From Arenicola marina (lineage: Eukaryota > Annelida > Polychaeta > Arenicolidae), in contig OZ025255.1 of the NCBI GenBank assembly GCA_964019135.1, positions 5,642,001 to 5,706,000 of the forward strand: a DNA stretch of 64,000 bases. The letters are read 5' to 3'. The position numbers and the translations under genes are program-made. Under the pieces are notes generated by a model. The model did no database searches. It saw only the letters and a program-made list of their open reading frames with translations, and was not told where the DNA came from. The stretch's first letter is position 1. The number at the start of each line of letters is the position of its first letter. Shown here piece by piece: positions 25,011 through 64,000 of this stretch.

Positions 25011-28000
25011 CCGTCTTTAGACAACGCGAAAAGATACGTTTTGAGGCAAAACCAAGAAAACCGATCTACTGTTTCTTTAGATTCTTATAAATAACATTTT
25101 CTTTATCCTCTACAATAAGCACAGTATATGTATGCTCATGTTCATAAATATCGTGCTGCCGCCCCTGTTTCAGTCAGACGATGTCCATGATGTATTATAA
25201 TACTGCATGAGCTCAGACAGAGGATTGTCGGGCCCGTTCTATGCCGAGCGACCCGCATTGACCACCAGCCATATTCAGGGCTCTCTATCAGCCTTAAACA
25301 GCTCAGACAGCAAGTCTCCACCAGCATGATACTCCACATGATAAACTGGAGAAATGACTTCGACATAGTATCTGACTGTGTAAACGTTAACAGTACACAC
25401 AATGCTCCAGTTAGGCCAACAAAATGAAAACTTAAAATATATCATTTCCAATAAAATTACCATGTTAAATAAAGCTGTATCAGTCAATTTGACCTGGACC
25501 CTGATGACGCGTGTAACATGCGCAGGTCAGCTCCCCAGACTGCCATGGCATAGACTACCATCACAGACATGGAAGGGACTGAGCAGAGGTGGCGTCCTGG
25601 CACCATAAGTTCAAAACCGCTGAATACTTCGCCCTCAAATTGGACATTAGCATTGAGCTGGGCGACGTAATGGCCACGGGCCACGCCAGCGAACAGTGCA
25701 TACCACCGGGGAGTGCCGCCATCTGGCGGCGAACGAACGAGATACTTGGATACTTTGACCGGATATCTTGTTGGGTACACATGAATACATAGGATGAATG
25801 AACATACCGTAATCCGTATATTATATATATGGTAGGAGTAACGACATATCGATAAGGGGGGAGGGGGGGGGGGGCGGGGTAGATGTGAGGTCCAGGGTTG
25901 ACCCATGGCAATGTAAACACCAGAGTATTCTGGATCCGCGCAGCACGCCAGACTTATGAGTCATAAACTGCTACCTGTTCAGCTTTCTCTCCACAGTGTT
26001 TAGAGAGTACCCCGACGAGGGGCAGGAGGGGGTGTCCGGGGGGAGGGGATGGCGGGGGCGAAATGTGAGGAACGGAGTGACGGAGGGACTCCCGAGTCAA
26101 GGGTGGTAAGGTCAAGGCCGCCTTGAGAGGTTCGTCTGGGGACACTTGCCTTCCTGCCTTGTATTTGGGTGGGGTTGGGGGGGGGGGTGGCGGAAGAGAG
26201 ACAGAGAGAGAGAGAGCCGAGTTGCACCTAGGCACCTAGCCCCACCCCACCCCCCCCCCCCCCCGCCGGCAGTGCAAGCGCAATACAAAGAGATGCAAGT
26301 GAGGAAATTGGGCTAATTTGAGAGAAAAAACAGCCGTAATGGCTACCGTCACCGTCTCCGATTGCCCGCCATAATCTGAGTTCTGTGGATAAAAAGGACG
26401 CCGGATTGTATCAGTATGTGTCAGTGCGTGTATTATTCACGGCGTGGGGGAGTGGGGAGGGTGATGAGGGGGGCGGGGGGGTACAGGGGGGTTTCCGCCC
26501 AGACCTCGGACGACCAGAGATTGGAACAACTTTGTCCGGACGACTCACAGACACAAGTGGCGCCCTCTCTCGCCTGTAGATTATGAACTATATGCCACTA
26601 CGATACTTACCCCACAAAAACGCATGACTCACCAGAACTGAATGCTTTGTGCAAATATTCCAAGCCACTTCATATATCAGGTATGAAGGTATGCCATTCA
26701 CAAAATGTCGCCAATGACCATGGTGCTAATTAGCCTGTTCCCCCTGTGCACTGGGACACACATTACTCAGCCATATTCTTTATCCAACAATTACAACATT
26801 GCACAACAACAGCATCAATTTGACTTCGATCATTTATTTTGTCTCATTCATTAAATTTTAATCTTGTTTGACAAGATCACACATTCATACATTATAATTA
26901 TAATCAAATATGTACAACATTAAGTCGGCCATTTGCATTTTCAGTTTGACGGTTTCGTACAAGCCCCAGTACCGGATACCCAACAGCCCCCCCCCCCCAC
27001 CCCCTGCGCCAATCAAACATAAAAGCAAGATGTATCATAAAGAACAAATATTTAAAAATGAAATGAGCCACAATTAGAAACGAAACGAATTAGTGGTCGG
27101 ATGGTACAGACTGACAGATAGGTAGACATGACCGATTGCACCCTCGACCGTCACAACTGCGGTCAGCAGCGTTCGAAATCTAACGTTTGGGGAAAGCACA
27201 CAGCTACTGAAAACAGTGGCTCACAGACCGCAAGGAAAATGTGACGTCACATAATGACGTGAAGAGACAGTTTACTGGCTACGCCATATCGGAACTAAAG
27301 CAGCCAACTTTATAATGGGAATGTCACTGGCACAATGAATGTCAGACCTTGCTTTATGTCATAATTCAGACACGTTTCTCGACAATTTAATTAATTTGAG
27401 GTTCCGTGTTAATACAAGCGATACGCGTCCGACAACCTGAGCAACTAAACACCGGAAAAAACATAAGAAAATGTGCTCAATAATGCATTTCAAATGTCCC
27501 CAAATAAATAACAATATTACAGCCAACAAATATATAAAAAGTAAGTCAAATACCCCAAAAAATACGAAGAAAAGCGACACCACAATATTTTACAAGGGAG
27601 TCCTCAACAAAAAGCTACCCCCGCGCGAACAACCTACTGCAATGCCCCGTGGAGACCAGGAACCAAGATGACAGGCGACTGATTGGATAAGGTTGTACTG
27701 CAATGACTGTCAACACTGTTTCACGCCTATCCAACAGCCACACCGCAAAACGCCCACTGATGAAACAGTAAAATCGAATATTGCAAGTATCTCTACCCGA
27801 ACCCTGTATATAAACATTGTGAAAGTATTTACCTAAATGTCTAGGTTTACAACATTATCAGTTTTTTTTTCAGGGTCTTAGTATTGACCTTGAAATGAAA
27901 GTATATTATTGAAATAGTAAAACTAATTGAACTAACTCTGGGGGGAAACAGATTTTGGGAAATGGATAGAGAATCGATGGATACAGAATTATAGACTCAA

Positions 28001-28306
28001 GTTTCCAGGGTTTTTGATAAGCAAATGAGGCATACCACGTGATATATCTCGGCCATGGTTCTAACTGGATAATAGTTCAAAGCAGTTGCCAAGAAAACAT
28101 GTGCTTAATTAACATCGAAGCGCAGAAGAAATAGCGCATGTGAAGCTGATACTACAAGAGATTAAGGTCAATGGCAAGGTCATAAGACAAATAACATTCC
28201 CAGGTATCCCACGGATATGACGTCATAATCACAGAACGAATGTTAACAAGCTTTGCATAGAGCTGTTTGGGTTTCTTTGCATAAGAGTTCAATGTCAACA
28301 TGCTAC

Positions 28307-28320
28307 GTTGCTATGGTAAC
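28307..28320. promoter_or_regulatory. X-box-like (RFX) palindromic site
   Basis: GTTGCTATGGTAAC matches the RFX X-box pattern GTnRCC-N2-RGYAAC with one permitted pyrimidine change at the sixth base. It lies on the 3' side of the GAS1-like gene. RFX factors control ciliary genes in animals. Function at this spot is inferred from sequence alone. Confidence 0.35.
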
Positions 28321-28482
28321 CACAACCGGTAGGTCCACTGCAAGTTGACGGCTGCTAATTAGTAGCTTTACAAAACAAAGAATAACAATAATGCCAAAGA
28401 GTTGACTTACCCACAAGACGCAAGTCTATCACGATTGACTTACGGCACGCATACTAAGCATGATAATCAATCTAACTGGATG

Positions 28483-28491
28483 GGTAGACCT
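28483..28491. repeat. Target-site duplication, left copy
   Basis: GGTAGACCT directly precedes the foldback element and is repeated exactly at 29096-29104, right after its other end. Removing the element and one copy leaves a continuous presumed empty site. Confidence 0.9.
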
Positions 28492-28750
28492 TAGCCCTGG
28501 TACATGCCTCTCTGACCACGCCCGTAAACGGAGCTAGGGTGAGAGCCATGCCGCTGACACGGCCGAAAACAAGAAATCGGCAGAAATCGCGGACCGGTGG
28601 CTCAAGTTGAAGTTCATAACAGAATAAATATACAGTGCCTACCCGACAATGTGCGCCACGACGTTCCTAAAGCTTTTTGGACTTTCGTCGCACTTTCATT
28701 TCTTTGCTTGGTAATGTATTTTCTTGTAATCCAGACAATTTATTTCACCT
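28492..28750 (+). repeat. Left terminal inverted repeat of the foldback element
   Basis: This arm pairs base for base with 28837-29095 read in reverse complement. It runs from TAGCCCTGG to TTTATTTCACCT. On its forward strand it carries AATAAA in CAGAATAAATATACAG. Confidence 0.93.
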
Positions 28751-28836
28751 AAATAAACAAACGCCGCCTGGCAGCGAGTGCTCACGCTAAGATTGTTTAC
28801 TTCCGGCGAGCGGCGGAGGATTCAAAACGAAGCGAG

Positions 28837-29095
28837 AGGTGAAATAAATTGTCTGGATTACAAGAAAATACATTACCAAGCAAAGAAATGAAAGTGCGAC
28901 GAAAGTCCAAAAAGCTTTAGGAACGTCGTGGCGCACATTGTCGGGTAGGCACTGTATATTTATTCTGTTATGAACTTCAACTTGAGCCACCGGTCCGCGA
29001 TTTCTGCCGATTTCTTGTTTTCGGCCGAGTCAGCGGCATGGCTCTCACCCTAGCTCCGTTTACGGGCGTGGTAAGAGAGGCATGTACCAGGGCTA
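28837..29095 (-). repeat. Right terminal inverted repeat of the foldback element
   Basis: Reverse complement of the left arm with about two mismatches and no indel. Read on the minus strand, the strand of the GAS1-like gene, it contains AATAAA at 28959-28964. Confidence 0.93.
28959..28964 (-). promoter_or_regulatory. Candidate poly(A) signal for the GAS1-like gene, inside the transposon arm
   Basis: TTTATT on the plus strand is AATAAA on the minus strand, about 315 bases after the GAS1-like stop codon. I saw no other AATAAA on the minus strand between the stop and this site. Use as a real 3' end is inferred. Confidence 0.4.
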
Positions 29096-29104
29096 GGTAG
29101 ACCT
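29096..29104. repeat. Target-site duplication, right copy
   Basis: GGTAGACCT, identical to 28483-28491, abuts the right end of the foldback element. Confidence 0.9.
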
Positions 29105-29278
29105 GTCAACTGATTTAAATCGAATGTGAATTGATGATTATTCGATAAATACATGGGCCGAAGCGATATTCTCTATCTACTGTCAGAAGAGAACCAAAGT
29201 TGATGAAGTCATGAGTATGAAATGGCGTTGCAATGTACCGTCAGCTTCACCGTATAGCTTACCCCATATGTCACGCGG

Positions 29279-30361
29279 CTACAAGTGAGATGTAAGCAGT
29301 AAAGATATGAGAACGACAAGCGGGAGTGTCAAGGGTATCCGAGTGTTGGCGGTGACTGTATGGCTGGCGCCACTGTGGAGGGAGGAACCCACAACACTGA
29401 TCTCTATCTGGGGGTTACACCCCCGCCCGTTGTCCGTTATGGAATTGTCATCGAGCGGCGGTGAGTCGCCGTCACCGTCCGCGGAGTCATCGCGCTCGTG
29501 GTCATGGCCACCCGGGTGGCGCATGCGCGGCGTGGTAGTCACATGATGGGACGAACCAGCGCCCCCGTGCGGCTCCCGATGGAAGCAGAGCCTGGCCATG
29601 TGCGTCCGTTCGCGCGAGCAATCCATGACGTCATCACCGTCGCAGTAACAGTTGCGCAACTTGTTGGCCTTGCGTTGCCGGAAGAGGATGTTGAGGCTGT
29701 TGTTGCAGCGAGCGGGGCAGCCCTCTCCGCGGAACATCCGCTTGCAATGGCGGTCGTAGAACTCGAAGGCCTTGAGGCACTCCGTGTCCGCCACGCACAC
29801 CGAGGCCGCCAGGTCACAGCTGATGCGCGTGACGTCATCGTTGACGTCATGGAGGGCGGCCTGCACCTCTCGATGACAGATCTCGATGCGGGTCTTCTGC
29901 TGGAGGCAGAACTCCTCGTCCTCGCAGTCGCAGTTGACGAAGTCCTCGCCGCCCTGCTCCTCGCTGGTCAGCAGCATGATGAGGGCCTTGGCGCACTCCG
30001 GCGCGCAGTGGTCCACGGCCCCGTTGGTCACCAGCGTGCAGTGCGTCCAGTAGTTCTGTAGCGCCAGGCGGCACCCGTCCCGCGTGAAGCACCGGTTCTG
30101 CACCCCCTGACACAACTCCCCGCTCACCCCGGACACCATCACCGACACGGCGCTCAACACCGTCCACAGCGCCAACCACGACGTCAACGACTTCCACTCC
30201 ACGTATCCACGGCAACCTTGCAACCGTCGCCAAGGCAACGGCTGTTGCCCGGGCGATGATGACGCCAGCGATGCCGGCGCCGTGCGAAGTAATGTCCCTA
30301 GCAACCGTGTGCGCGCGGCGACCACCCTAGCAACGACAATGCGCTGATCGCCGAATGTCAT
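29279..30361 (-). CDS. gas1: GAS1-like GDNF/GAS1-domain protein, GPI-anchored (single exon as read)
   Basis: The 360-residue protein has two GDNF/GAS1 domains, each with ten cysteines in matching spacing: C84, 91, 97, 108, 119, 123, 144, 146, 152, 162, and C182, 189, 195, 206, 215, 219, 238, 240, 248, 259. The CDC and CYC pairs and the end of domain two, HMARLCF, resemble vertebrate GAS1; GFR-alpha receptors usually have three domains. A hydrophobic stretch at about 59-77 looks like a signal peptide. An acidic linker (about 288-311) and a hydrophobic C-terminus (343-358) suggest a GPI anchor. One N-glycosylation site is at N220. In vertebrates GAS1 is a Hedgehog co-receptor at the cell surface; that role here is inferred. 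The ATG at 30361 has A at -3. It leaves about 55 Arg-rich residues before the signal core, and no other Met precedes the core, so the start may lie in an upstream exon. Confidence 0.9.
   Translation of the reverse strand: MTFGDQRIVVARVVAARTRLLGTLLRTAPASLASSSPGQQPLPWRRLQGCRGYVEWKSLTSWLALWTVLSAVSVMVSGVSGELCQGVQNRCFTRDGCRLALQNYWTHCTLVTNGAVDHCAPECAKALIMLLTSEEQGGEDFVNCDCEDEEFCLQQKTRIEICHREVQAALHDVNDDVTRISCDLAASVCVADTECLKAFEFYDRHCKRMFRGEGCPARCNNSLNILFRQRKANKLRNCYCDGDDVMDCSRERTHMARLCFHREPHGGAGSSHHVTTTPRMRHPGGHDHERDDSADGDGDSPPLDDNSITDNGRGCNPQIEISVVGSSLHSGASHTVTANTRIPLTLPLVVLISLLLTSHL
29626..29633. promoter_or_regulatory. Perfect TGACGTCA palindrome inside the GAS1-like coding region
   Basis: Full CRE palindrome formed by the Asp-Asp-Val-Met codons. 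Two more lie at 29830-29837 and 29842-29849. CREB/ATF proteins bind this sequence in animals. Here codon choice may explain it. Confidence 0.3.
29830..29849. promoter_or_regulatory. Pair of TGACGTCA palindromes 12 bases apart, in coding sequence
   Basis: Both copies are perfect eight-base palindromes, 29830-29837 and 29842-29849. They are encoded by His-Asp-Val-Asn-Asp-Asp-Val-Thr. The 12-base spacing is close to one helical turn. Regulatory use is unproven. Confidence 0.3.
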
Positions 30362-30394
30362 TCTCCCATTGGTCGAGACTGGGGCTAAGAAGTG
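30362..30394 (-). promoter_or_regulatory. Possible splice acceptor and CCAAT sequence just upstream of the GAS1-like ATG
   Basis: On the minus strand CTCACTTCTTAGCCCCAG ends at about 30378, like a branch site and 3' splice site. The frame stays open from there into the ATG. CCAAT (minus strand, 30368-30372) lies only seven bases from the ATG. If this acceptor is used, translation starts in an exon further upstream. If the CCAAT is a promoter element, the start of transcription would fall inside the present reading frame. Both are weak single-site signals. Confidence 0.3.
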
Positions 30395-30507
30395 AGTCCC
30401 TGTCCGCTAGGTCCTCCTCCCTCGCTGGCCACGGCCAACCCCAGGCTGCTGCTGCGCATGCGTGTTCCCGCTAACGGTCATCGACGAGAAAGTTTGGGTC
30501 CCGTCCT

Positions 30508-48810: not shown

Positions 48811-50016
48811 AGTGTCATACGAAAAGAGAGTCCGGTAAAGGAGTCTCCAAGTGTAATTAGTACGGTAAGAGTGTCATTCACGAGAGAGAGGCCGGTATTA
48901 AAGGAGGCTCCAAGTGTAATTAGTACGGTAAGAGTGTCATTCACCAGAGAGAGGCCGGTATTAAAGAAGGCTCCAAGTGTAATTAGTACGGTAAGAGTGT
49001 CATTCACCAGAGAGAGGCCGGTAAAGGAGGCTCCAAGTGTAATTAGTACGGTAAGAGTGTCATTCACCAGAGAAAGGCCGGTATTAAAGGAGGCTCCAAG
49101 TGTAATTAGTACGGTAAGAGTGTCATTCACCAGAGAGAGGCCGGTATTAAAGGAGGCTCCAAGTGTAATTAGTACGGTAAGAGTGTCATTCACCAGAGAG
49201 AGGCCGGTATTAAAGAAGGCTCCAAGTGTAATTAGTACGGTAAGAGTGTCATTCACCAGAGAGAGGCCGGTAAAGGAGGCTCCAAGTGTAATTAGTACGG
49301 TAAGAGTGTCATTCACCAGAGAGAGGCCGGTATTAAAGGAGACTCGAAATGTAATTAGTACGGTAAGAGTGTCATTCACCAGAGAGAGGCCGGTATTAAA
49401 GGAGGCTCCAAGTGTAATTAGTACGGTAAGAGTGTCATTCACCAGAGAGAGGCCGGTAAAGGAGGCTCCAAGTGTAATTAGTACGGTAAGAGTGTCATTC
49501 ACCAGAGAGAGGCCGGTATTAAAGGAGGCTCCAAGTGTAATTAGTACGGTAAGAGTGTCATTCACCAGAGAGAGGCCGGTATTAAAGGAGGCTCCAAGTG
49601 TAATTAGTACGGTAAGAGTGTCATTCACCAGAGAGAGGCCGGTAAAGGAGGCTCCAAGTGTAATTAGTACGGTAAGAGTGTCATTCACCAGAGAGAGGCC
49701 GGTAAAGGAGACTCCAAGTGTAATTAGTACGGTAAGAGTGTCATTCACCAGATAGAGGCCGGTAAAGGAGACTCCAAGTGTAAATAGTACGGTAAGAGTG
49801 TCATTCACCAGAGAGAGGCCGGTAAAGGAGGCTCCAAGTGTAATTAGTACGGTAAGAGTGTCATTCACCAGAGAGAGGCCGGTATTAAAGGAGACTCCAA
49901 GTGTAATTAGAATGGTAAGAGTGTCATTCACCAGAGAGAGGCCGGTATTAAAGGAGGCTCCATGTGTAATTAGTACGGTAAGAGTATCATTCACCAGAAA
50001 GAGGCCGGTAAAGGAG

Positions 50017-51101
50017 GCTCCAAGTGTAATTAGTACGGTAAGAGTGTCATTCACCAGAGAGAGGCCGGTATTAAAAGAGGCTCCAAGTGTAATTAGTACG
50101 GTAAGAGTGTCATTCACCAGATAGAGGCCGGTATTAAAGGAGACTCCAAGTGTAATTAGTACGGTAAGAGTGTCATTCACCAGATAGAGGCCGGTAAAGG
50201 AGACTCCAAGTGTAAATAGTACGGTAAGAGTGTCATTCACCAGAGAGAGGCCGGTAAAGGAGGCTCCAAGTGTAATTAGTACGGTAAGAGTGTCATTCAC
50301 CAGAGAAAGGCCGGTATTAAAGGAGGCTCCAAGTGTAATTAGTACGGTAAGAGTGTCATTCACCAGATAGAGGCCGGTAAAGGAGACTCCAAGTGTAAAT
50401 AGTACGGTAAGAGTGTCATTCACCAGAGAGAGGCCGGTAAAGGAGGCTCCAAGTGTAATTAGTACGGTAAGAGTGTCATTCACCAGAGAGAGGCCGGTAA
50501 AGGAGGCCCCAAGTGTAATTAGTACGGTAAGAGTGTCATTCACCAGAGAGAGGCCGGTAAAGGAATGGGGCTATTAGTGTAATTAGTACGGTAACCAGAG
50601 AGAGGCCGGTAAAGGAGACTCCAAGTGTAATTCGTACGGTAAGAGTGTCATTCACCAGATAGAGGCCGGTAAAGGAGACTCCAAGTGTAAATAGTACGGT
50701 AAGAGTGTCATTCACCAGAGAGAGGCCGGTATTAAAGGAGGCTCCAAGTGTAATTAGTACGGTAAGAGTGTCATTCACCAGAGAGAGGCCGGTATTAAAG
50801 GAGACTCCAAGTGTAATTAGTACGGTAAGAGTGTCATTCACCAGATAGAGGCCGGTAAAGGAGACTCCAAGTGTAAATAGTACGGTAAGAGTGTCATTCA
50901 CCAGAGAGAGGCCGGTAAAGGAGGCTCCAAGTGTAATTAGTACGGTAAGAGTGTCATTCACCAGAGAGAGCCGGTAAAGGAGGCCCCAAGTGTAATTAGT
51001 ACGGTAAGAGTGTCATTCACCAGAGAGAGGCCGGTAAAGGAATGGGGCTCCTAGTGTAATTAGTACGGTAACCAGAGAGAGGCCGGTAAAGGAGACTCCA
51101 A
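50017..51101. repeat. Segment of the 60/63-bp array recurring 11516 bp to the right
   Basis: Landmarks at 50565 and 51042 (a junction unit with AATGGGGCT) and the reading-frame limits 50536-50961 recur at 62081, 62558 and 62052-62477. The constant offset is 11516. Further left the offset is 11390, a difference of 126 bases (two 63-bp units). Confidence 0.85.
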
Positions 51102-52338
51102 GTGTAATTCGTACGGTAAGAGTGTCATTCACCAGAGAGAGGCCGGTAAAGGAGACTCCAAGTGTAACTAGTACGGTAAGAGTGTCATTCACTAGAGAGA
51201 GGCCGGTATTAAAGGAGGCTCCAAGTGTAATTGGTACGGTAAGAGTGTCATTCACCAGAGAGAGGCCGGTATTAAAGGAGGCTCCAAGTGTAATTAGTAC
51301 GGTAAGAGTGTCATTCACCAGAGAGAGGCCGGTATTAAAGGAGGCTCCAAATGTAATTAGTACGGTAAGAGTGTCATTCACCAGAGAGAGGCCGGTAAAG
51401 GAGGCTCCAAGTGTAATTAGTACGGTAAGAGTGTCATTCACCAGAGAGAGGCCGGTAAAGGAGGCGCCAAGTGTAATTAGTACGGTAAGAGTGTCATTCA
51501 CCAGAGAGAGGCCGATATTAAAGGAGGCTCCAAGTGTAATTAGTGCGGTAAGAGTGTCATTCACCAGAGAGAGGCCGGTATTAAAGGAGGCTCCAAGTGT
51601 AATTAGTACGGTAAGAGTGTCATACATCAGAGAGAGACCGGTATTAAAGGAGGCTCCAAGTGTAATTAGTACGGTAAGAGTGTCATTCATCAGAGAGAGG
51701 CCGGTATTAAAGGAGGCTCCAAGTGTAATTAGTACGGTAAGAGTGTCATACATCAGAGAGAGGCCGGTATTAAAGGAGGCTCCAAGTGTAATTAGTACGG
51801 TAAGAGTGTCATTCATCAGAGAGAGGCCGGTATTAAAGGAGGCTCCAAGTGTAATTAGTACGGTAAGAGTGTCATTCACCAGAGAGAGGCCGGTAAACGA
51901 GACTCCAAGTGTAATTAGTACGGTAAGAGTGTCATTCACCAGAGAGAGGCCGGTATTTAAGGAGGCTCCAAGTGTAATTAGTACGGTAAGAGTGTCATAC
52001 ACCAGAGAGAGGCCGGTATTAAAGGAGGCTCCAAGTGTAATTAGTACGGTAAGAGTGTCATTCACCAGAGAGAGGCCGGTATTAAAGGAGGCTCCAAGTG
52101 TAATTAGTGCGGTAAGAGTGTCATTCACCAGAGAGAGGACGGTATTAAAGGAGGCTCCAAGTGTAATTAGTACGGTAAGAGTGTCATTCATCAGAGAGAG
52201 GCGGGTATTAAAGGACGCTCCAAGTGTAATTAGTACGGAAAGAGTGTCATTCATCAGAGAGAGGCGGGTATTAAAGGACGCTCCAAGTGTAATTAGTACG
52301 GTAAGAGTGTCATTCACCAGAGAGAGGCCGGTAAAGGA

Positions 52339-55300
52339 ATGGGGCTCCAAGTGTAATTAGTACGGTAACCAGAGAGAGGCCGGTAAAGGAGACTCCAAGT
52401 GTAATTAGTACGGTAAGAGTGTCATTCACCAGAGAGAGGCCGGTATTAAAGGAGGCTCCAAATGTAATTAGTACGGTAAGAGTGTCATTCACCAGAGAGA
52501 GGCGGGTATTAAAGGACGCTCCAAGTGTAATTAGTACGGTAAGAGTGTCATTCACCAGAGAGAGGCCGATATTAAAGGAGGCTCCAGAGAGAGAGAGGCG
52601 GGTATTAAAGGACGCTCCAAGTGTAATTAGTACGGTAAGAGTGTCATTCACCAGAGAGAGGCCGATATTAAAGGAGGCTCCAAGTGTAATTATTACGGTA
52701 AGAGTGTCATTCACCAGAGAGAAGCCGGTATTAAAGGAGGCTCCAAGTGTAATTAGTACGGTAAGAGTGTCATTCACGAGAGAGAGGCCGTTATTAAAGG
52801 ACGCTCCAAGTGTAATTAGTACGGTAAGAGTGTCATTCACCAGAGAGAGGCCGGTAAAGGAGGCTCCAAGTGTAATTAGTACGGTAGTAGTGTCATTCAC
52901 CAGAGAGAGGCCGGTATTAAAGGAGGCTCCAAGTGTAATTAGTACGGTAAGAGTGTCATTCACCAGAGAGAGGCCGGTAAAGGAGGCTCCAAGTGTAATT
53001 AGTACGGTAAGAGTGTCATTCACCAGAGAAAGGCCGGTATTAAAGGAGGCTTCAAGTGTAATTAGTACGGTAAGAGTGTCATTCATCAGAGAGAGGCCGG
53101 TATTAAAGGAGGCTCCAAGTGTAATTAGTACGGTAAGAGTGTCATTCACCAGAGAGAGGCCGGTAAAGGAGGCTCCAAGTGTAATTAGTACGGTAAGAGT
53201 GTCATTCACCAGAGAGAGGCCGGTAAACGAGACTCCAAGTGTAATGAGTACGGTAAGAGTGTCATTCACCAGAGAGAGGCCGGTAAAGGAGGCTCCAAGT
53301 GTAATTAGTACGGTAAGAGTGTCATTCACCAGAGAGAGGCCGGTATTAAAGGAGACTCGAAATGTAATTAGTACGGTAAGAGTGTCATTCACCAGAGAGA
53401 GGCCGGTATTAAAGGAGGCTCCAAGTGTAATTAGTACGGTAAGAGTGTCATTCATCAGAGAGAGGCCGGTATTAAAGGAGGCTCCAAGTGTAATTATTAC
53501 GGTAAGAGTGTCATTCACCAGAGAGAGGCCGGTAAACGAGACTCCAAGTGTAATTAGTACGGTAAGAGTGTCATTCATCAGAGAGAGGCGGGTATTAAAG
53601 GACGCTCCAAGTGTAATTAGTACGGTAAGAGTGTCATTCACCAGAGAAAGGCCGGTATTAAAGGAGGCTCCAAATGTAATTAGTACGGTAAGAGTGTCAT
53701 TCACCAGAGAGAGGCCGGTAAAGGAGGCTCCAAGTGTAATTAGTACGGTAAGAGTGTCATTCACCAGAGAGAGGCCGGTAAAGGAGGCGCCAAGTGTAAT
53801 TAGTACGGTAAGAGTGTCATTCACCAGAGAGAGGCCGATATTAAAGGAGGCTCCAAGTGTAATTAGTGCGGTAAGAGTGTCATTCACCAGAGAGAGGCCG
53901 GTATTAAAGGAGGCTCCAAGTGTAATTAGTACGGTAAGAGTGTCATACATCAGAGAGAGACCGGTATTAAAGGAGGCTCCAAGTGTAATTAGTACGGTAA
54001 GAGTGTCATTCATCAGAGAGAGGCCGGTATTAAAGGAGGCTCCAAGTGTAATTAGTACGGTAAGAGTGTCATACATCAGAGAGAGGCCGGTATTAAAGGA
54101 GGCTCCAAGTGTAATTAGTACGGTAAGAGTGTCATTCATCAGAGAGAGGCCGGTATTAAAGGAGGCTCCAAGTGTAATTAGTACGGTAAGAGTGTCATTC
54201 ACCAGAGAGAAGCCGGTAAACGAGACTCCAAGTGTAATTAGTACGGTAAGAGTGTCATTCACCAGAGAGAGGCCGGTATTTAAGGAGGCTCCAAGTGTAA
54301 TTAGTACGGTAAGAGTGTCATACACCAGAGAGAGGCCGGTATTAAAGGAGGCTCCAAGTGTAATTAGTACGGTAAGAGTGTCATTCACCAGAGAGAGGCC
54401 GGTATTAAAGGAGGCTCCAAGTGTAATTAGTGCGGTAAGAGTGTCATTCACCAGAGAGAGGACGGTATTAAAGGAGGCTCCAAGTGTAATTAGTACGGTA
54501 AGAGTGTCATTCATCAGAGAGAGGCGGGTATTAAAGGACGCTCCAAGTGTAATTAGTACGGAAAGAGTGTCATTCATCAGAGAGAGGCGGGTATTAAAGG
54601 ACGCTCCAAGTGTAATTAGTACGGTAAGAGTGTCATTCACCAGAGAGAGGCCGGTAAAGGAATGGGGCTCCAAGTGTAATTAGTACGGTAACCAGAGAGA
54701 GGCCGGTAAAGGAGACTCCAAGTGTAATTAGTACGGTAAGAGTGTCATTCACCAGAGAGAGGCCGGTATTAAAGGAGGCTCCAAATGTAATTAGTACGGT
54801 AAGAGTGTCATTCACCAGAGAGAGGCGGGTATTAAAGGACGCTCCAAGTGTAATTAGTACGGTAAGAGTGTCATTCACCAGAGAGAGGCCGATATTAAAG
54901 GAGGCTCCAGAGAGAGAGAGGCGGGTATTAAAGGACGCTCCAAGTGTAATTAGTACGGTAAGAGTGTCATTCACCAGAGAGAGGCCGATATTAAAGGAGG
55001 CTCCAAGTGTAATTATTACGGTAAGAGTGTCATTCACCAGAGAGAAGCCGGTATTAAAGGAGGCTCCAAGTGTAATTAGTACGGTAAGAGTGTCATTCAC
55101 GAGAGAGAGGCCGTTATTAAAGGACGCTCCAAGTGTAATTAGTACGGTAAGAGTGTCATTCACCAGAGAGAGGCCGGTAAAGGAGGCTCCAAGTGTAATT
55201 AGTACGGTAGTAGTGTCATTCACCAGAGAGAGGCCGGTATTAAAGGAGGCTCCAAGTGTAATTAGTACGGTAAGAGTGTCATTCACCAGAGAGAGGCCGG

Positions 55301-56984
55301 TAAAGGAGGCTCCAAGTGTAATTAGTACGGTAAGAGTGTCATTCACCAGAGAAAGGCCGGTATTAAAGGAGGCTTCAAGTGTAATTAGTACGGTAAGAGT
55401 GTCATTCATCAGAGAGAGGCCGGTATTAAAGGAGGCTCCAAGTGTAATTAGTACGGTAAGAGTGTCATTCACCAGAGAGAGGCCGGTAAAGGAGGCTCCA
55501 AGTGTAATTAGTACGGTAAGAGTGTCATTCACCAGAGAGAGGCCGGTAAACGAGACTCCAAGTGTAATGAGTACGGTAAGAGTGTCATTCACCAGAGAGA
55601 GGCCGGTAAAGGAGGCTCCAAGTGTAATTAGTACGGTAAGAGTGTCATTCACCAGAGAGAGGCCGGTATTAAAGGAGACTCGAAATGTAATTAGTACGGT
55701 AAGAGTGTCATTCACCAGAGAGAGGCCGGTATTAAAGGAGGCTCCAAGTGTAATTAGTACGGTAAGAGTGTCATTCATCAGAGAGAGGCCGGTATTAAAG
55801 GAGGCTCCAAGTGTAATTATTACGGTAAGAGTGTCATTCACCAGAGAGAGGCCGGTAAACGAGACTCCAAGTGTAATTAGTACGGTAAGAGTGTCATTCA
55901 TCAGAGAGAGGCGGGTATTAAAGGACGCTCCAAGTGTAATTAGTACGGTAAGAGTGTCATTCACCAGAGAAAGGCCGGTATTAAAGGAGGCTCCAAGTGT
56001 AATTAGTACGGTAAGAGTGTCATTCATCAGAGAGAGGCCGGTATCAAAGGAGGCTCCAAGTGTAATTAGTACGGTAAGAGTGTCATTCACCAGAGAGAGG
56101 CCGGTATTAAAGGAGGCTCCAAGTGTAATTAGTACGGTAAGAGTGTCATTCACCAGAGAGAGGCGGGTATTAAAGGACGCTCCAAGTGTAATTAGTACGG
56201 TAAGAGTGTCATTCACCAGAGAGAGGCCGGTATTTAAGGAGGCTCCAAGTGTAATTAGTACGGTAAGAGTGTCATTCACCAGAGAGAGGCGGGTATTAAA
56301 GGAGGCTCCAAGTGTAATTAGTACGGTAAGAGTGTCATTCACCAGAGAGAGGCGGGTATTAAAGGAGGCTCCAAGTGTAATTAGTACGGTAAGAGTGTCA
56401 TTCACCAGAGAGAGGCCGGTATTAAAGGAGGCTCCAAGTGTAATTGGTACGGTAAGAGTGTCATTCACCAGAGAGAGGCCGGTATTAAAGGAGGCTCCAA
56501 GTGTAATTAGTACGGTAAGAGTGTCATTCACCAGAGAGAGGCCGGTATTAAAGGAGGCTCCAAGTGTAATTAGTACGGTAAGAGTGTCATTCACCAGAGA
56601 GAGGGCGGTATTAAAGGAGGCTCCAAGTGTAATTAGTACGGTAAGAGTGTCATTCATCAGAGAGAGGCCGGTATTAAAGGAGGCTCCAAGTGTAATTAGT
56701 ACGGTAAGAGTGTCATTCACCAGAGAGCGGCCGGTATTAAAGGAGGCTCCAAGTGTAATTAGTACGGTAAGAGTGTCATTCACCAGAGAGAGGCGGGTAT
56801 TAAAGGAGGCTCCAAGTGTAATTAGTACGGTAAGAGTGTCATTCACCAGAGAGAGGCCGGTATTAAAGGAGGCTCCAAGTGTAATTAATACGGTAAGAGT
56901 GTCATTCACCAGAGAGAGGCGGGTATTAAAGAAGGCTCCAAGTGTTATTAGTACGGTAAGAGTGTCATTCACCAGAGAGAGGCC
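52339..56984. repeat. 2323-bp higher-order repeat inside the 60/63-bp array
   Basis: The order of variant units from 52339 to 54661 is repeated from 54662 for at least about 1.3 kb, including an odd unit where GCTCCAGAGAGAGAGAGG replaces a whole segment (near 52583 and 54906). The part from about 51340 to 52338 is a further partial copy of 53663-54661. After about 55985 the third copy switches to a different unit order. Confidence 0.85.
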
Positions 56985-57002
56985 GGTATTAAATGAGGGC
57001 TC

Positions 57003-60000
57003 CAAGTGTACTTAGTACGGTAAGAGTGTCATTCACCAGTGAGAGGCCGGTAAAGGAGACTCCAAGTGTAATTAGTACGGTAAGAGTGTCATTCACCAGA
57101 GAGAGGCGGGTATTAAAGGAGGCTCCAAGTGTAATTAGTACGGTAAGAGTGTCATTCACCAGAGAGAGGCCGGTATTAAAGGAGGCTCCAAGTGTAATTA
57201 GTACGGTAAGAGTGTCATTCACCAGAGAGAGGACGGTATTAAAGGAGGCTCCAAGTGTAATTAGTACGGTAAGAGTGTCATTCACCAGAGAGAGGCCGGT
57301 ATTAAAGGAGGCTCCAAGTGTAATTAGTACGGTAAGAGTGTCATTCACCAGAGAGAGGCCGGTATTAAAGGAGGCTCCAAGTGTAATTAGTGCGGTAAGA
57401 GTGTCATTCACCAGAGAGAGGACGGTATTAAAGGAGGCTCCAAGTGTAATTAGTACGGTAAGAGTGTCATTCATCAGAGAGAGGCGGGTATTAAAGGACG
57501 CTCCAAGTGTAATTAGTACGGTAAGAGTGTCATTCACCAAAGAGAGGCCGGTACAGGAGGCTCCAAGTGTAATTAGCACGGTAAGAGTGTCATTCACCAG
57601 AGAGAGGCCGGTATTAAAGGAGGCTCCAAGTGTAATTAGTACGGTAAGAGTGTCATTCACCAGAGAGAGGCCGGTAAAGGAGGCTCCAAGTGTAATTAGT
57701 ACGGTAAGAGTGTCATTCACCAGAGAAAGGCCGGTATTAAAGGAGGCTCCAAGTGTAATTAGTACGGTAAGAGTGTCATTCACCAGAGAGAGGCCGGTAA
57801 ACGAGACTCCAAGTGTAATTAGTACAGTAAGAGTGTCATTCACCAGAGAGAGGCCGGTAAAGGAGGCTCCAAGTGTAATTAGTACGGTAAGAGTGTCATT
57901 CACCAGAGAGAGGCCGGTATTAAAGAAGGCTCCAAGTGTAATTAGTACGGTAAGAGTGTCATTCACCAGAGAGAGGCCGGTAAAGGAGGCTCCAAGTGTA
58001 ATTAGTACGGTAAGAGTGTCATTCACCAGAGAGAGGCCGGTATTAAAGGAGACTCGAAATGTAATTAGTACGGTAAGAGTGTCATTCACCAGAGAGAGGC
58101 CGGTATTAAAGGAGGCTCCAAGTGTAATTAGTACGGTAAGAGTGTCATTCACCAGAGAGAGGCCGGTAAAGGAGGCTCCAAGTGTAATTAGTACGGTAAG
58201 AGTGTCATTCACCAGAGAGAGGCCGGTAAACGAGACTCCAAGTGTAATGAGTACGGTAAGAGTGTCATTCACCAGAGAGAGGCCGGTAAAGGAGGCTCCA
58301 AGTGTAATTAGTACGGTAAGAGTGTCATTCACCAGAGAGAGGCCGGTATTAAAGGAGACTCGAAATGTAATTAGTACGGTAAGAGTGTCATTCACCAGAG
58401 AGAGGCCGGTATTAAAGGAGGCTCCAAGTGTAATTAGTACGGTAAGAGTGTCATTCATCAGAGAGAGGCCGGTATTAAAGGAGGCTCCAAGTGTAATTAT
58501 TACGGTAAGAGTGTCATTCACCAGAGAGAGGCCGGTAAACGAGACTCCAAGTGTAATTAGTACGGTAAGAGTGTCATTCATCAGAGAGAGGCGGGTATTA
58601 AAGGACGCTCCAAGTGTAATTAGTACGGTAAGAGTGTCATTCACCAGAGAAAGGCCGGTATTAAAGGAGGCTCCAAGTGTAATTAGTACGGTAAGAGTGT
58701 CATTCATCAGAGAGAGGCCGGTATCAAAGGAGGCTCCAAGTGTAAATAGTACGGTAAGAGTGTCATTCACCAGAGAGAGGCCGGTATTAAAGGAGGCTCC
58801 AAGTGTAATTAGTACGGTAAGAGTGTCATTCACCAGAGAGAGGCGGGTATTAAAGGACGCTCCAAGTGTAATTAGTACGGTAAGAGTGTCATTCACCAGA
58901 GAGAGGCCGGTATTTAAGGAGGCTCCAAGTGTAATTAGTACGGTAAGAGTGTCATTCACCAGAGAGAGGCGGGTATTAAAGGAGGCTCCAAGTGTAATTA
59001 GTACGGTAAGAGTGTCATTCACCAGAGAGAGGCGGGTATTAAAGGAGGCTCCAAGTGTAATTAGTACGGTAAGAGTGTCATTCACCAGAGAGAGGCCGGT
59101 ATTAAAGGAGGCTCCAAGTGTAATTGGTACGGTAAGAGTGTCATTCACCAGAGAGAGGCCGGTATTAAAGGAGGCTCCAAGTGTAATTAGTACGGTAAGA
59201 GTGTCATTCACCAGAGAGAGGCCGGTATTAAAGGAGGCTCCAAGTGTAATTAGTACGGTAAGAGTGTCATTCACCAGAGAGAGGGCGGTATTAAAGGAGG
59301 CTCCAAGTGTAATTAGTACGGTAAGAGTGTCATTCATCAGAGAGAGGCCGGTATTAAAGGAGGCTCCAAGTGTAATTAGTACGGTAAGAGTGTCATTCAC
59401 CAGAGAGCGGCCGGTATTAAAGGAGGCTCCAAGTGTAATTAGTACGGTAAGAGTGTCATTCACCAGAGAGAGGCGGGTATTAAAGGAGGCTCCAAGTGTA
59501 ATTAGTACGGTAAGAGTGTCATTCACCAGAGAGAGGCCGGTATTAAAGGAGGCTCCAAGTGTAATTAATACGGTAAGAGTGTCATTCACCAGAGAGAGGC
59601 GGGTATTAAAGAAGGCTCCAAGTGTTATTAGTACGGTAAGAGTGTCATTCACCAGAGAGAGGCCGGTATTAAATGAGGGCTCCAAGTGTACTTAGTACGG
59701 TAAGAGTGTCATTCACCAGTGAGAGGCCGGTAAAGGAGACTCCAAGTGTAATTAGTACGGTAAGAGTGTCATTCACCAGAGAGAGGCGGGTATTAAAGGA
59801 GGCTCCAAGTGTAATTAGTACGGTAAGAGTGTCATTCACCAGAGAGAGGCCGGTATTAAAGGAGGCTCCAAGTGTAATTAGTACGGTAAGAGTGTCATTC
59901 ACCAGAGAGAGGACGGTATTAAAGGAGGCTCCAAGTGTAATTAGTACGGTAAGAGTGTCATTCACCAGAGAGAGGCCGGTATTAAAGGAGGCTCCAAGTG

Positions 60001-62362
60001 TAATTAGTACGGTAAGAGTGTCATTCACCAGAGAGAGGCCGGTATTAAAGGAGGCTCCAAGTGTAATTAGTGCGGTAAGAGTGTCATTCACCAGAGAGAG
60101 GACGGTATTAAAGGAGGCTCCAAGTGTAATTAGTACGGTAAGAGTGTCATTCATCAGAGAGAGGCGGGTATTAAAGGACGCTCCAAGTGTAATTAGTACG
60201 GTAAGAGTGTCATTCACCAAAGAGAGGCCGGTACAGGAGGCTCCAAGTGTAATTAGCACGGTAAGAGTGTCATTCACCAGAGAGAGGCCGGTATTAAAGG
60301 AGGCTCCAAGTGTAATTAGTACGGTAAGAGTGTCATTCACCAGAGAGAGGCCGGTAAAGGAGGCTCCAAGTGTAATTAGTACGGTAAGAGTGTCATTCAC
60401 CAGAGAAAGGCCGGTATTAAAGGAGGCTCCAAGTGTAATTAGTACGGTAAGAGTGTCATTCACCAGAGAGAGGCCGGTAAACGAGACTCCAAGTGTAATT
60501 AGTACAGTAAGAGTGTCATTCACCAGAGAGAGGCCGGTAAAGGAGGCTCCAAGTGTAATTAGTACGGTAAGAGTGTCATTCACCAGAGAGAGGCCGGTAT
60601 TAAAGAAGGCTCCAAGTGTAATTAGTACGGTAAGAGTGTCATTCACCAGAGAGAGGCCGGTAAAGGAGGCTCCAAGTGTAATTAGTACGGTAAGAGTGTC
60701 ATTCACCAGAGAGAGGCCGGTATTAAAGGAGACTCGAAATGTAATTAGTACGGTAAGAGTGTCATTCACCAGAGAGAGGCCGGTATTAAAGGAGGCTCCA
60801 AGTGTAATTAGTACGGTAAGAGTGTCATTCACCAGAGAGAGGCCGGTAAAGGAGGCTCCAAGTGTAATTAGTACGGTAAGAGTGTCATTCACCAGAGAGA
60901 GGCCGGTATTAAAGGAGGCTCCAAGTGTAATTAGTACGGTAAGAGTGTCATTCACCAGAGAGAGGCCGGTATTAAAGGAGGCTCCAAGTGTAATTAGTAC
61001 GGTAAGAGTGTCATTCACCAGAGAGAGGCCGGTAAAGGAGGCTCCAAGTGTAATTAGTACGGTAAGAGTGTCATTCACCAGAGAGAGGCCGGTAAAGGAG
61101 ACTCCAAGTGTAATTAGTACGGTAAGAGTGTCATTCACCAGATAGAGGCCGGTAAAGGAGACTCCAAGTGTAAATAGTACGGTAAGAGTGTCATTCACCA
61201 GAGAGAGGCCGGTAAAGGAGGCTCCAAGTGTAATTAGTACGGTAAGAGTGTCATTCACCAGAGAGAGGCCGGTATTAAAGGAGACTCCAAGTGTAATTAG
61301 AATGGTAAGAGTGTCATTCACCAGAGAGAGGCCGGTATTAAAGGAGGCTCCAAGTGTAATTAGTACGGTAAGAGTGTCATTCACCAGAGAGAGGCCGGTA
61401 TTAAAGGAGGCTCCAAGTGTAATTAGTACGGTAAGAGTGTCATTCACCAGAGAGAGGCCGGTATTAAAGGAGGCTCCATGTGTAATTAGTACGGTAAGAG
61501 TATCATTCACCAGAAAGAGGCCGGTAAAGGAGGCTCCAAGTGTAATTAGTACGGTAAGAGTGTCATTCACCAGAGAGAGGCCGGTATTAAAAGAGGCTCC
61601 AAGTGTAATTAGTACGGTAAGAGTGTCATTCACCAGATAGAGGCCGGTATTAAGGGAGACTCCAAGTGTAATTAGTACGGTAAGAGTGTCATTCACCAGA
61701 TAGAGGCCGGTAAAGGAGACTCCAAGTGTAAATAGTACGGTAAGAGTGTCATTCACCAGAGAGAGGCCGGTAAAGGAGGCTCCAAGTGTAATTAGTACGG
61801 TAAGAGTGTCATTCACCAGAGAAAGGCCGGTATTAAAGGAGGCTCCAAGTGTAATTAGTACGGTAAGAGTGTCATTCACCAGATAGAGGCCGGTAAAGGA
61901 GACTCCAAGTGTAAATAGTACGGTAAGAGTGTCATTCACCAGAGAGAGGCCGGTAAAGGAGGCTCCAAGTGTAATTAGTACGGTAAGAGTGTCATTCACC
62001 AGAGAGAGGCCGGTAAAGGAGGCCCCAAGTGTAATTAGTACGGTAAGAGTGTCATTCACCAGAGAGAGGCCGGTAAAGGAATGGGGCTATTAGTGTAATT
62101 AGTACGGTAACCAGAGAGAGGCCGGTAAAGGAGACTCCAAGTGTAATTCGTACGGTAAGAGTGTCATTCACCAGATAGAGGCCGGTAAAGGAGACTCCAA
62201 GTGTAAATAGTACGGTAAGAGTGTCATTCACCAGAGAGAGGCCGGTATTAAAGGAGGCTCCAAGTGTAATTAGTACGGTAAGAGTGTCATTCACCAGAGA
62301 GAGGCCGGTATTAAAGGAGACTCCAAGTGTAATTAGTACGGTAAGAGTGTCATTCACCAGAT
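57003..62362. repeat. 2680-bp higher-order repeat inside the 60/63-bp array
   Basis: A landmark unit with AAATGAGGGCTCCAAGTG and TACTTAGTACGG occurs at about 56993 and 59673, exactly 2680 apart. Variant order before and after it matches, including a unit with CACCAAAGAGAGGCCGG and GTACAGGAGG near 57536 and 60216. The true right limit of the second copy is near 60900, where the order changes. Confidence 0.8.
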
Positions 62363-63698
62363 AGAGGCCGGTAAAGGAGACTCCAAGTGTAAATAGTACG
62401 GTAAGAGTGTCATTCACCAGAGAGAGGCCGGTAAAGGAGGCTCCAAGTGTAATTAGTACGGTAAGAGTGTCATTCACCAGAGAGAGCCGGTAAAGGAGGC
62501 CCCAAGTGTAATTAGTACGGTAAGAGTGTCATTCACCAGAGAGAGGCCGGTAAAGGAATGGGGCTCCTAGTGTAATTAGTACGGTAACCAGAGGGAGGCC
62601 GGTAAAGGAGACTCCAAGTGTAATTCGTACGGTAAGAGTGTCATTCACCAGAGAGAGGCCGGTAAAGGAGACTCCAAGTGTAACTAGTACGGTAAGAGTG
62701 TCATTCACTAGAGAGAGGCCGGTATTAAAGGAGGCTCCAAGTGTAATTGGTACGGTAAGAGTGTCATTCACCAGAGAGAGGCCGGTATTAAAGGAGGCTC
62801 CAAGTGTAATTAGTACGGTAAGAGTGTCATTCACCAGAGAGAGGCCGGTATTAAAGGAGGCTCCAAATGTAATTAGTACGGTAAGAGTGTCATTCACCAG
62901 AGAGAGGCCGGTAAAGGAGGCTCCAAGTGTAATTAGTACGGTAAGAGTGTCATTCACCAGAGAGAGCCGGTAAAGGAGGCCCCAAGTGTAATTAGTACGG
63001 TAAGAGTGTCATTCACCAGAGAGAGGCCGGTAAAGGAATGGGGCTCCTAGTGTAATTAGTACGGTAACCAGAGAGAGGCCGGTAAAGGAGGCTCCATGTG
63101 TAATTAGTACGGTAAGAGTATCATTCACCAGAAAGAGGCCGGTAAAGGAGGCTCCAAGTGTAATTAGTACGGTAAGAGTGTCATTCACCAGAGAGAGGCC
63201 GGTATTAAAAGAGGCTCCAAGTGTAATTAGTACGGTAAGAGTGTCATTCACCAGATAGAGGCCGGTATTAAGGGAGACTCCAAGTGTAATTAGTACGGTA
63301 AGAGTGTCATTCACCAGATAGAGGCCGGTAAAGGAGACTCCAAGTGTAAATAGTACGGTAAGAGTGTCATTCACCAGAGAGAGGCCGGTAAAGGAGGCTC
63401 CAAGTGTAATTAGTACGGTAAGAGTGTCATTCACCAGAGAAAGGCCGGTATTAAAGGAGGCTCCAAGTGTAATTAGTACGGTAAGAGTGTCATTCACCAG
63501 ATAGAGGCCGGTAAAGGAGACTCCAAGTGTAAATAGTACGGTAAGAGTGTCATTCACCAGAGAGAGGCCGGTAAAGGAGGCTCCAAGTGTAATTAGGACG
63601 GTAAGAGTGTCATTCACCAGAGAGAGGCCGGTAAAGGAGGCCCCAAGTGTAATTAGTACGGTAAGAGTGTCATTCACCAGAGAGAGGCCGGTAAAGGA
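62081..63698. repeat. 1618-bp duplication near the right end of the array
   Basis: The junction unit AATGGGGCTATTAG occurs at 62081 and 63699, 1618 bases apart. Neighbouring variant units match on both sides. The second copy continues off the window. Confidence 0.8.
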
Positions 63699-64000
63699 AT
63701 GGGGCTATTAGTGTAATTAGTACGGTAACCAGAGAGAGGCCGGTAAAGGAGACTCCAAGTGTAATTCGTACGGTAAGAGTGTCATTCACCAGATAGAGGC
63801 CGGTAAAGGAGACTCCAAGTGTAAATAGTACGGTAAGAGTGTCATTCACCAGAGAGAGGCCGGTATTAAAGGAGGCTCCAAGTGTAATTAGTACGGTAAG
63901 AGTGTCATTCACCAGAGAGAGGCCGGTATTAAAGGAGACTCCAAGTGTAATTAGTACGGTAAGAGTGTCATTCACCAGATAGAGGCCGGTAAAGGAGACT

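Follow-up and report, generated by a model that had tools for sequence, protein, structure and literature searches.

Tc4 of C. elegans and similar foldback elements are near-perfect palindromes with a short loop, and the Rehavkus and FB elements of the Mutator group combine 9-bp duplications with long inverted repeats. The transposon family described here, from the annelid Arenicola marina, shares the palindromic form of the first and the duplication and long repeats of the second, but Tc4 belongs to another superfamily and makes a different and much shorter duplication, while Rehavkus and FB harbor minisatellite repeats in their arms. Palindromes of the size found here break chromosomes in model systems.

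Two further animal families allow a closer comparison. Tm1, a Mutator/Foldback family of root-knot nematodes, is flanked by an 8–10 bp duplication in 45 of 53 cases and shares with the present family a foldback structure, 9-bp duplications, non-coding members and inverted repeats that vary in length (PMC3169594). The same report, however, describes arms made of ~14-bp tandem repeats between end motifs, targets without a consensus and a coding member, whereas in our family the arms are unique sequence, the targets are palindromic and no coding member was found (PMC3169594). Muta1 of Aedes aegypti likewise has 8–9 bp duplications, long terminal inverted repeats and many non-coding derivatives with shortened repeats; it differs in its 145-bp ends, 12-bp subterminal repeats, reported lack of a target preference and other end letters (PMC5225508). 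The instability of interrupted palindromes in E. coli, where one report describes palindrome hairpins and inverted duplications formed via hairpin-capped ends, provides a likeness of mechanism, although it is an experimental system of another kind and our data consist of sequence traces alone (PMC3315005).

We analyzed a window of 64,000 nucleotides (C8:5642001-5706000; the window is the whole stretch of DNA under study) and searched an assembly of 867,369,267 bases in 762 contigs. Our verdict is that the family is ordinary in kind and an unusually clear record of palindrome loss and arm renewal.

Structure of the window copy

An earlier note, made from the letters of the window, had described two gap-free 259-base arms with about two mismatches, an 86-base centre and a perfect 9-bp duplication at both edges, and all of these were recovered at the positions claimed. 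The arms are 259 nt each, gap-free and 86 nt apart, their two mismatches lie at arm positions 23 and 68, and the flanking duplication matches at 9/9 bases. The copy is built as follows, with reference positions taken from the 638-bp copy L012.

28483-28491, no strand: target-site duplication, left, GGTAGACCT; the same 9 bases recur at 29096-29104
28492-28750, + strand: left arm of this copy, corresponding to positions 1-259 of the 638-bp reference; 257 of 259 bases pair with the right arm
28751-28760, + strand: innermost stretch of the left arm, next to a deletion of 34 bp (reference 260-293), from the alignment to the 638-bp L012
28761-28792, + strand: loop, 32 nt, forward orientation, reference 304-335
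28793-28836, + strand: inner segment of the right arm; most of its counterpart on the left is deleted in the window copy
28837-29095, - strand: right arm, complementary to the left arm, ending ...CCAGGGCTA
29096-29104, no strand: target-site duplication, right, GGTAGACCT

The window copy aligns to L012 along its entire length with the exception of reference positions 260-293, and this 34-bp deletion is located at the inner end of the left arm. The arm length of 259 bp given earlier is correct for this copy, while the arm of the family is ~303 bp, as seen in L012, with 34 bp deleted here. The apparent centre of 86 bp arises because the deletion lies beside the loop. As a single strand the copy forms one long hairpin, with a fold of -360.9 kcal/mol compared to -80.7 +/- 4.1 for 20 shuffles, and its long inverted repeats make up almost the whole element, as in foldback elements generally. 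Subterminal tandem repeats, a feature of FB, Tm1 and Muta1, are absent from the arms of the window copy, and Rehavkus-type minisatellite arrays in inverted termini are absent from 28492-29095. There is also no tandem array of any kind inside 28492-29095 and no direct-repeat family in 27500-30100, and a comparison of the window with Rfam gave 0 matches.

The transposon adjoins the end of an open frame at 29282-30406 (- strand, 375 aa), lying just outside it; the frame matches the GDNF/GAS1 domain with 23.6 bits against a cut-off of 22. Further along, positions 48836-63991 are occupied by a very long minisatellite with 63/126 bp units, and several further arrays with units of 16–47 bp take up much of the window.

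Family size, ends and reference copy

The arm used as a query gave 1594 candidate places genome-wide, 40 of which were scored and contained 49 matches, mostly 99–100% identical. Since the arm recurs across the genome, the window palindrome is not a product of chance. A 17-base end, allowing at most one mismatch, matched 1682 times (810 + 872), while the reversed-pattern control matched 3 times (1 + 2), and these 1682 ends suggest a family on the order of a thousand insertions. The reference, L012, is 638 bp long and has 303-bp arms, whose only mismatches are at positions 60, 92 and 255, around a loop of 32 nt at 304-335; undamaged copies in general are ~638 bp with two near-perfect ~303-bp arms about a 32-nt loop. 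Copies are dispersed, have no coding capacity and share the constant ends TAGCCC...GGGCTA, and the loop is found in both orientations relative to the flanks, as expected of a palindrome.

The earlier reading of the locus as a foldback-type DNA transposon agrees with these exact ends and the 9-bp duplication, and the search for other copies returned many that carry both. The three outcomes that the note had set as refuting it, namely absence of further copies, copies lacking the 9-bp duplication and deviating ends, did not overturn this reading when checked. The family is a non-autonomous palindromic (foldback) DNA transposon that is real, recent and abundant. Its kind is already known; the family itself is new within the literature searched, where a search on palindromic MITEs with asymmetric deletion gave no match and the matches listed for TAGCCCTGG included no such element. 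The exact arm 25-mer occurred 0 times in viral contigs.

With about a thousand insertions, as inferred from the ends, of one palindrome in a single animal genome, the family amounts to a natural experiment. The duplication of each insertion can mark its original boundaries, and the breakpoints of independent copies show the site at which the palindrome fails (beside the loop), the extent of arm loss and whether arms renew.

Insertion and target site

Combining the best-scoring copies with the chromosome-1 sample described below gave 47 two-ended copies. A perfect 9-bp duplication flanks 33 of them and 8 of 9 bases match in 6 more, which gives at least 8/9 in 39 of 47. The remaining eight (L013, L016, L055, L065, L080, L097, L102 and the second copy in L103) have no in-register 9-bp duplication, with repeats present in another register at L065 and L080. 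Among 38 target sites, compared without symmetrization, 37 have A/T at position -1 (two bases beyond the duplication on its left side), 35 have it at the mirror position +11 and 34 at both; the left edge is G-rich and the right edge C-rich. The symmetrized logo is also palindromic. The family has a palindromic target preference.

At L042 and L074, both on C1, two copies adjoin end to end with 9 and 4 bp between them, respectively, as if insertion had recurred at one target or next to it.

Source of the transposase

The 9-bp duplication lies within the 8–10 bp (commonly 9) that characterize Mutator-like elements (MULEs), and, judged by this length, a Mutator-like transposase is our best guess and the likely source. 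At least 103 MULE-domain matches are present in the genome. Six MULE loci were read, and none carries the ends or arms of the element; in four of the six, no element boundary falls within the stretch read. One and the same MULE occurs at L108 and L109 (C6 and C18), with PHD, OTU and MULE matches and 200-bp tandem repeats on one side; its MULE score was slightly below the cut-off in the domain check and above it in the genome search. Both copies were rejected as the partner because their visible end is CGGTCCG... and not TAGCCC. At L110, L111, L112 and L113 the stretch read contains neither an arm match (best E 0.33) nor duplication-flanked ends. At L111 (C5:43470900-43475300) the MULE frame is followed by a second frame with weak Ulp1-protease and SWIM matches that fall below the cut-off.

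The larger coding copy with these ends that the earlier note had envisaged was not found among the 72 end groups from the first part of chromosome 1. None of the 100 exact ends listed for C1 face each other at a distance of 1.2–15 kb, and the interiors of L092, L095, L091 and L099, read by eye, contained nothing transposase-like.

Mutator-like elements are the group most typically marked by a strict 9-bp duplication and long inverted repeats, which argues against assigning the element to another DNA-transposon superfamily, for example P-like, Merlin-like or KDZ. The clear palindromic target is a point against a Mutator-like source and in favor of such an assignment, as is the absence of these ends from all six MULE loci read. 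Two animal Mutator/foldback families are reported to lack a target preference; the reports on them agree on 8–10 bp duplications and long repeats (PMC5225508, PMC3169594). Taken together, an origin outside the Mutator group seems rather unlikely to us.

Arm loss and the position of breakpoints

To describe the state of the copies we used the 100 exact ends that come first in order along chromosome 1, which form 72 groups. Of these groups 64 were classified by hand; the other 8 are 7 single ends and one 29-bp fragment beside L074. In 11 of the 64 the palindrome is nearly complete (one of these carries a 350-bp insertion); the others are 22 two-ended copies with one arm shortened, 11 short two-ended remnants and 20 one-ended copies. 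Part or all of one arm is gone in 42 of the 64.

One arm and the loop are kept in 32 copies, 18 of them two-ended. Not entered in this count are full and short copies, those with a retained arm that stops short of 303, the complex loci L077 and L102, and L093, whose flanks are identical to those of L084; L091 was entered at 343 despite carrying an insertion. With positions numbered from the end that is retained, 17 of the 32 have their inner breakpoint at 340–350, 21 at 336–361 and 24 at 330–361, so that the break starts 5–14 bp beyond the loop in 17 of 32. Off the cluster, 7 breakpoints lie beyond 361 and 4 before 340, including one at 303. Against a uniform spread over the second arm the probabilities are ~2e-17 (340–350) and ~3e-16 (336–361), for windows chosen post hoc. 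Among one-armed copies outside the sample, L003 (345), L007 (342) and L036 (342) fit the cluster and L002 (388), L004 (394) and L037 (379) lie off it. The remnant of the lost arm in the 18 two-ended cases ranges from 13 to 235 bp, and since the outer breakpoints are scattered in this way, the copies did not inherit one deletion and the events were largely independent. The palindrome behaves as if the hairpin tip were its weak point, with breakage on the loop side being a tendency only.

The inner breakpoint of the window copy, when mirrored, is 345 and falls within the 340–350 cluster. The best explanation of the window copy is that it is a recent insertion, caught following an initial 34-bp loss on the loop side.

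Timing and mechanism of loss

Several copies have almost no second end and yet a perfect 9-bp duplication: 0 bp of that end remain in L007 and L092, 2–3 in L027, 10 in L022 and 13 in L096. Because such near-absent ends would hardly be usable by a transposase, we infer that arm loss in these five copies came after insertion. For the 20 one-ended copies a downstream duplication was sought, and for most none was found.

Loss could instead have occurred during or before transposition, either through interrupted gap repair at the donor or because already asymmetric elements were mobilized. The perfect duplications on most asymmetric two-ended copies look as if these had inserted asymmetric, and internal deletion by interrupted gap repair is a known origin of non-autonomous elements. 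We nevertheless judge this alternative unlikely, given that copies with ends of 0–13 bp and a perfect duplication (the five named above) are hardly insertable, that it leaves the one-ended copies without a duplication unexplained and that the outer breakpoints vary from copy to copy. It is far less credible still that faulty assembly of palindromes (inverted reads or foldback errors) produced the high arm identity and the one-armed copies. Long palindromes are difficult to assemble, as is generally held and as one report indicates (PMC4057610), but many of the loci carry 9-bp duplications of their own, there are three subfamilies of which the old ones show 5–16% arm divergence, and the truncated forms have filled flanks.

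With arm loss after insertion as the preferred reading, we consider the following overall explanation probable: a palindromic foldback transposon moved by a transposase acting in trans, arm loss that begins beside the loop, and homogenization of the arms of the source elements. The element would move by cut-and-paste, with a transposase encoded elsewhere in the genome that is presumably Mutator-like, judging by the duplication length. Once resident, the palindrome would be unstable: breakage or polymerase switching, beginning 5–14 bp beyond the loop, would take away differing lengths of the other arm, at times extending into the flank, and so yield one-armed copies. This may happen in two ways. 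A nuclease might open the hairpin just below its tip, followed by one-sided trimming and end joining, or the nascent strand might fold back after copying a short stem, lose its place and resume further on. Both would appear to fit the 5–14 bp rule equally. Of the 32 copies, 22 retain the arm on the R side of their loop and 10 the one on the F side, a skew that neither mechanism predicts.

The one-armed copy L086 (C1:31457200-31458800) contains an inverted copy of reference 289–319 located 12 nt past the loop. This inverted loop and inner stem fit the trace expected of snap-back synthesis, as a single case; L086 is the only locus with this signature, and the other two-loop locus consists of two separate elements. 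If the loop-side rule holds across individuals, the nuclease or polymerase step of palindrome instability in the animal germ line becomes testable.

Origin of the similarity between arms

Recent insertion, as proposed in the earlier note, is in accord with the 99–100% identity over the arm among copies of the same subfamily. The note had also considered conversion between the arms of single copies. Among 21 left arms, however, 20 have in another copy an arm no more distant than their own partner, and the same is true of 16 of 21 right arms, which speaks against gene conversion within each copy as the main cause of near identity. Since the two arms of a young copy resemble arms of other copies at least as closely as they resemble one another, recent insertion explains their near identity.

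A deeper relationship was revealed by a careful tree of 42 arms from 21 copies (17 of subfamilies A and B, 4 of C). In this tree both arms of all 17 A/B copies form one clade, apart from the 8 C arms, with 100/100 support, and a topology with one clade per arm (all X arms together) is rejected with an AU p of 5.6e-50. Inversion of the loop might mix up the labels X and Y, yet it could not part both A/B arms from both C arms. The separation of the A/B and C arm clades therefore means that, between lineages, either the arms were homogenized or the palindrome was made anew. Judging from the arm sequences, homogenization or re-copying of arms would have taken place in source elements and would be visible at the subfamily level only. 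In subfamily C the two arms are starting to separate. FastTree trees had suggested separate homogenization of A and B, a scheme that we do not claim, since the careful tree leaves A and B unseparated and does not reject an A clade (p 0.454); the arms appear to support one homogenization step only.

The same tree, with A and B arms in one clade and C arms in another, also fits a history in which the A/B and C arms turned palindromic independently from one-armed ancestors, with no single homogenized palindrome. A/B and C have the loop and the arm boundaries in common, however, and conversion to a palindrome with the same loop and arm ends would have to have happened twice; we regard this history as possible, though clearly the less probable one. 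Under the homogenization that we favor, the arms of source elements would have regained their likeness on one occasion or more, the simplest route being the copying of one arm into the other, be it through snap-back synthesis from the loop-side stem or through arm conversion.

More speculatively, and with considerable doubt on our part, loss and renewal could form a cycle: one arm is lost through breakage at the hairpin tip, and the survivor can be copied into a new perfect palindrome by snap-back synthesis that starts from the short stem beside the loop. If true, such a cycle would give each generation of source elements identical arms at its start, and one-armed copies would be the dead ends of the family and also its raw material.

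Clustered copies and a second palindromic element

Five one-armed copies lie within G000:C5:5596333-5839206, spaced ~57–69 kb apart, in what looks like a tandemly duplicated segment. Inside the truncated copy at L092 (C1:41514900-41515750), at ~183-290, there is a second, smaller palindromic element with the ends TAGCCTGAAAA and a 9-bp duplication of its own, GGGTGAGGC, which is perhaps a relative with similar end letters.
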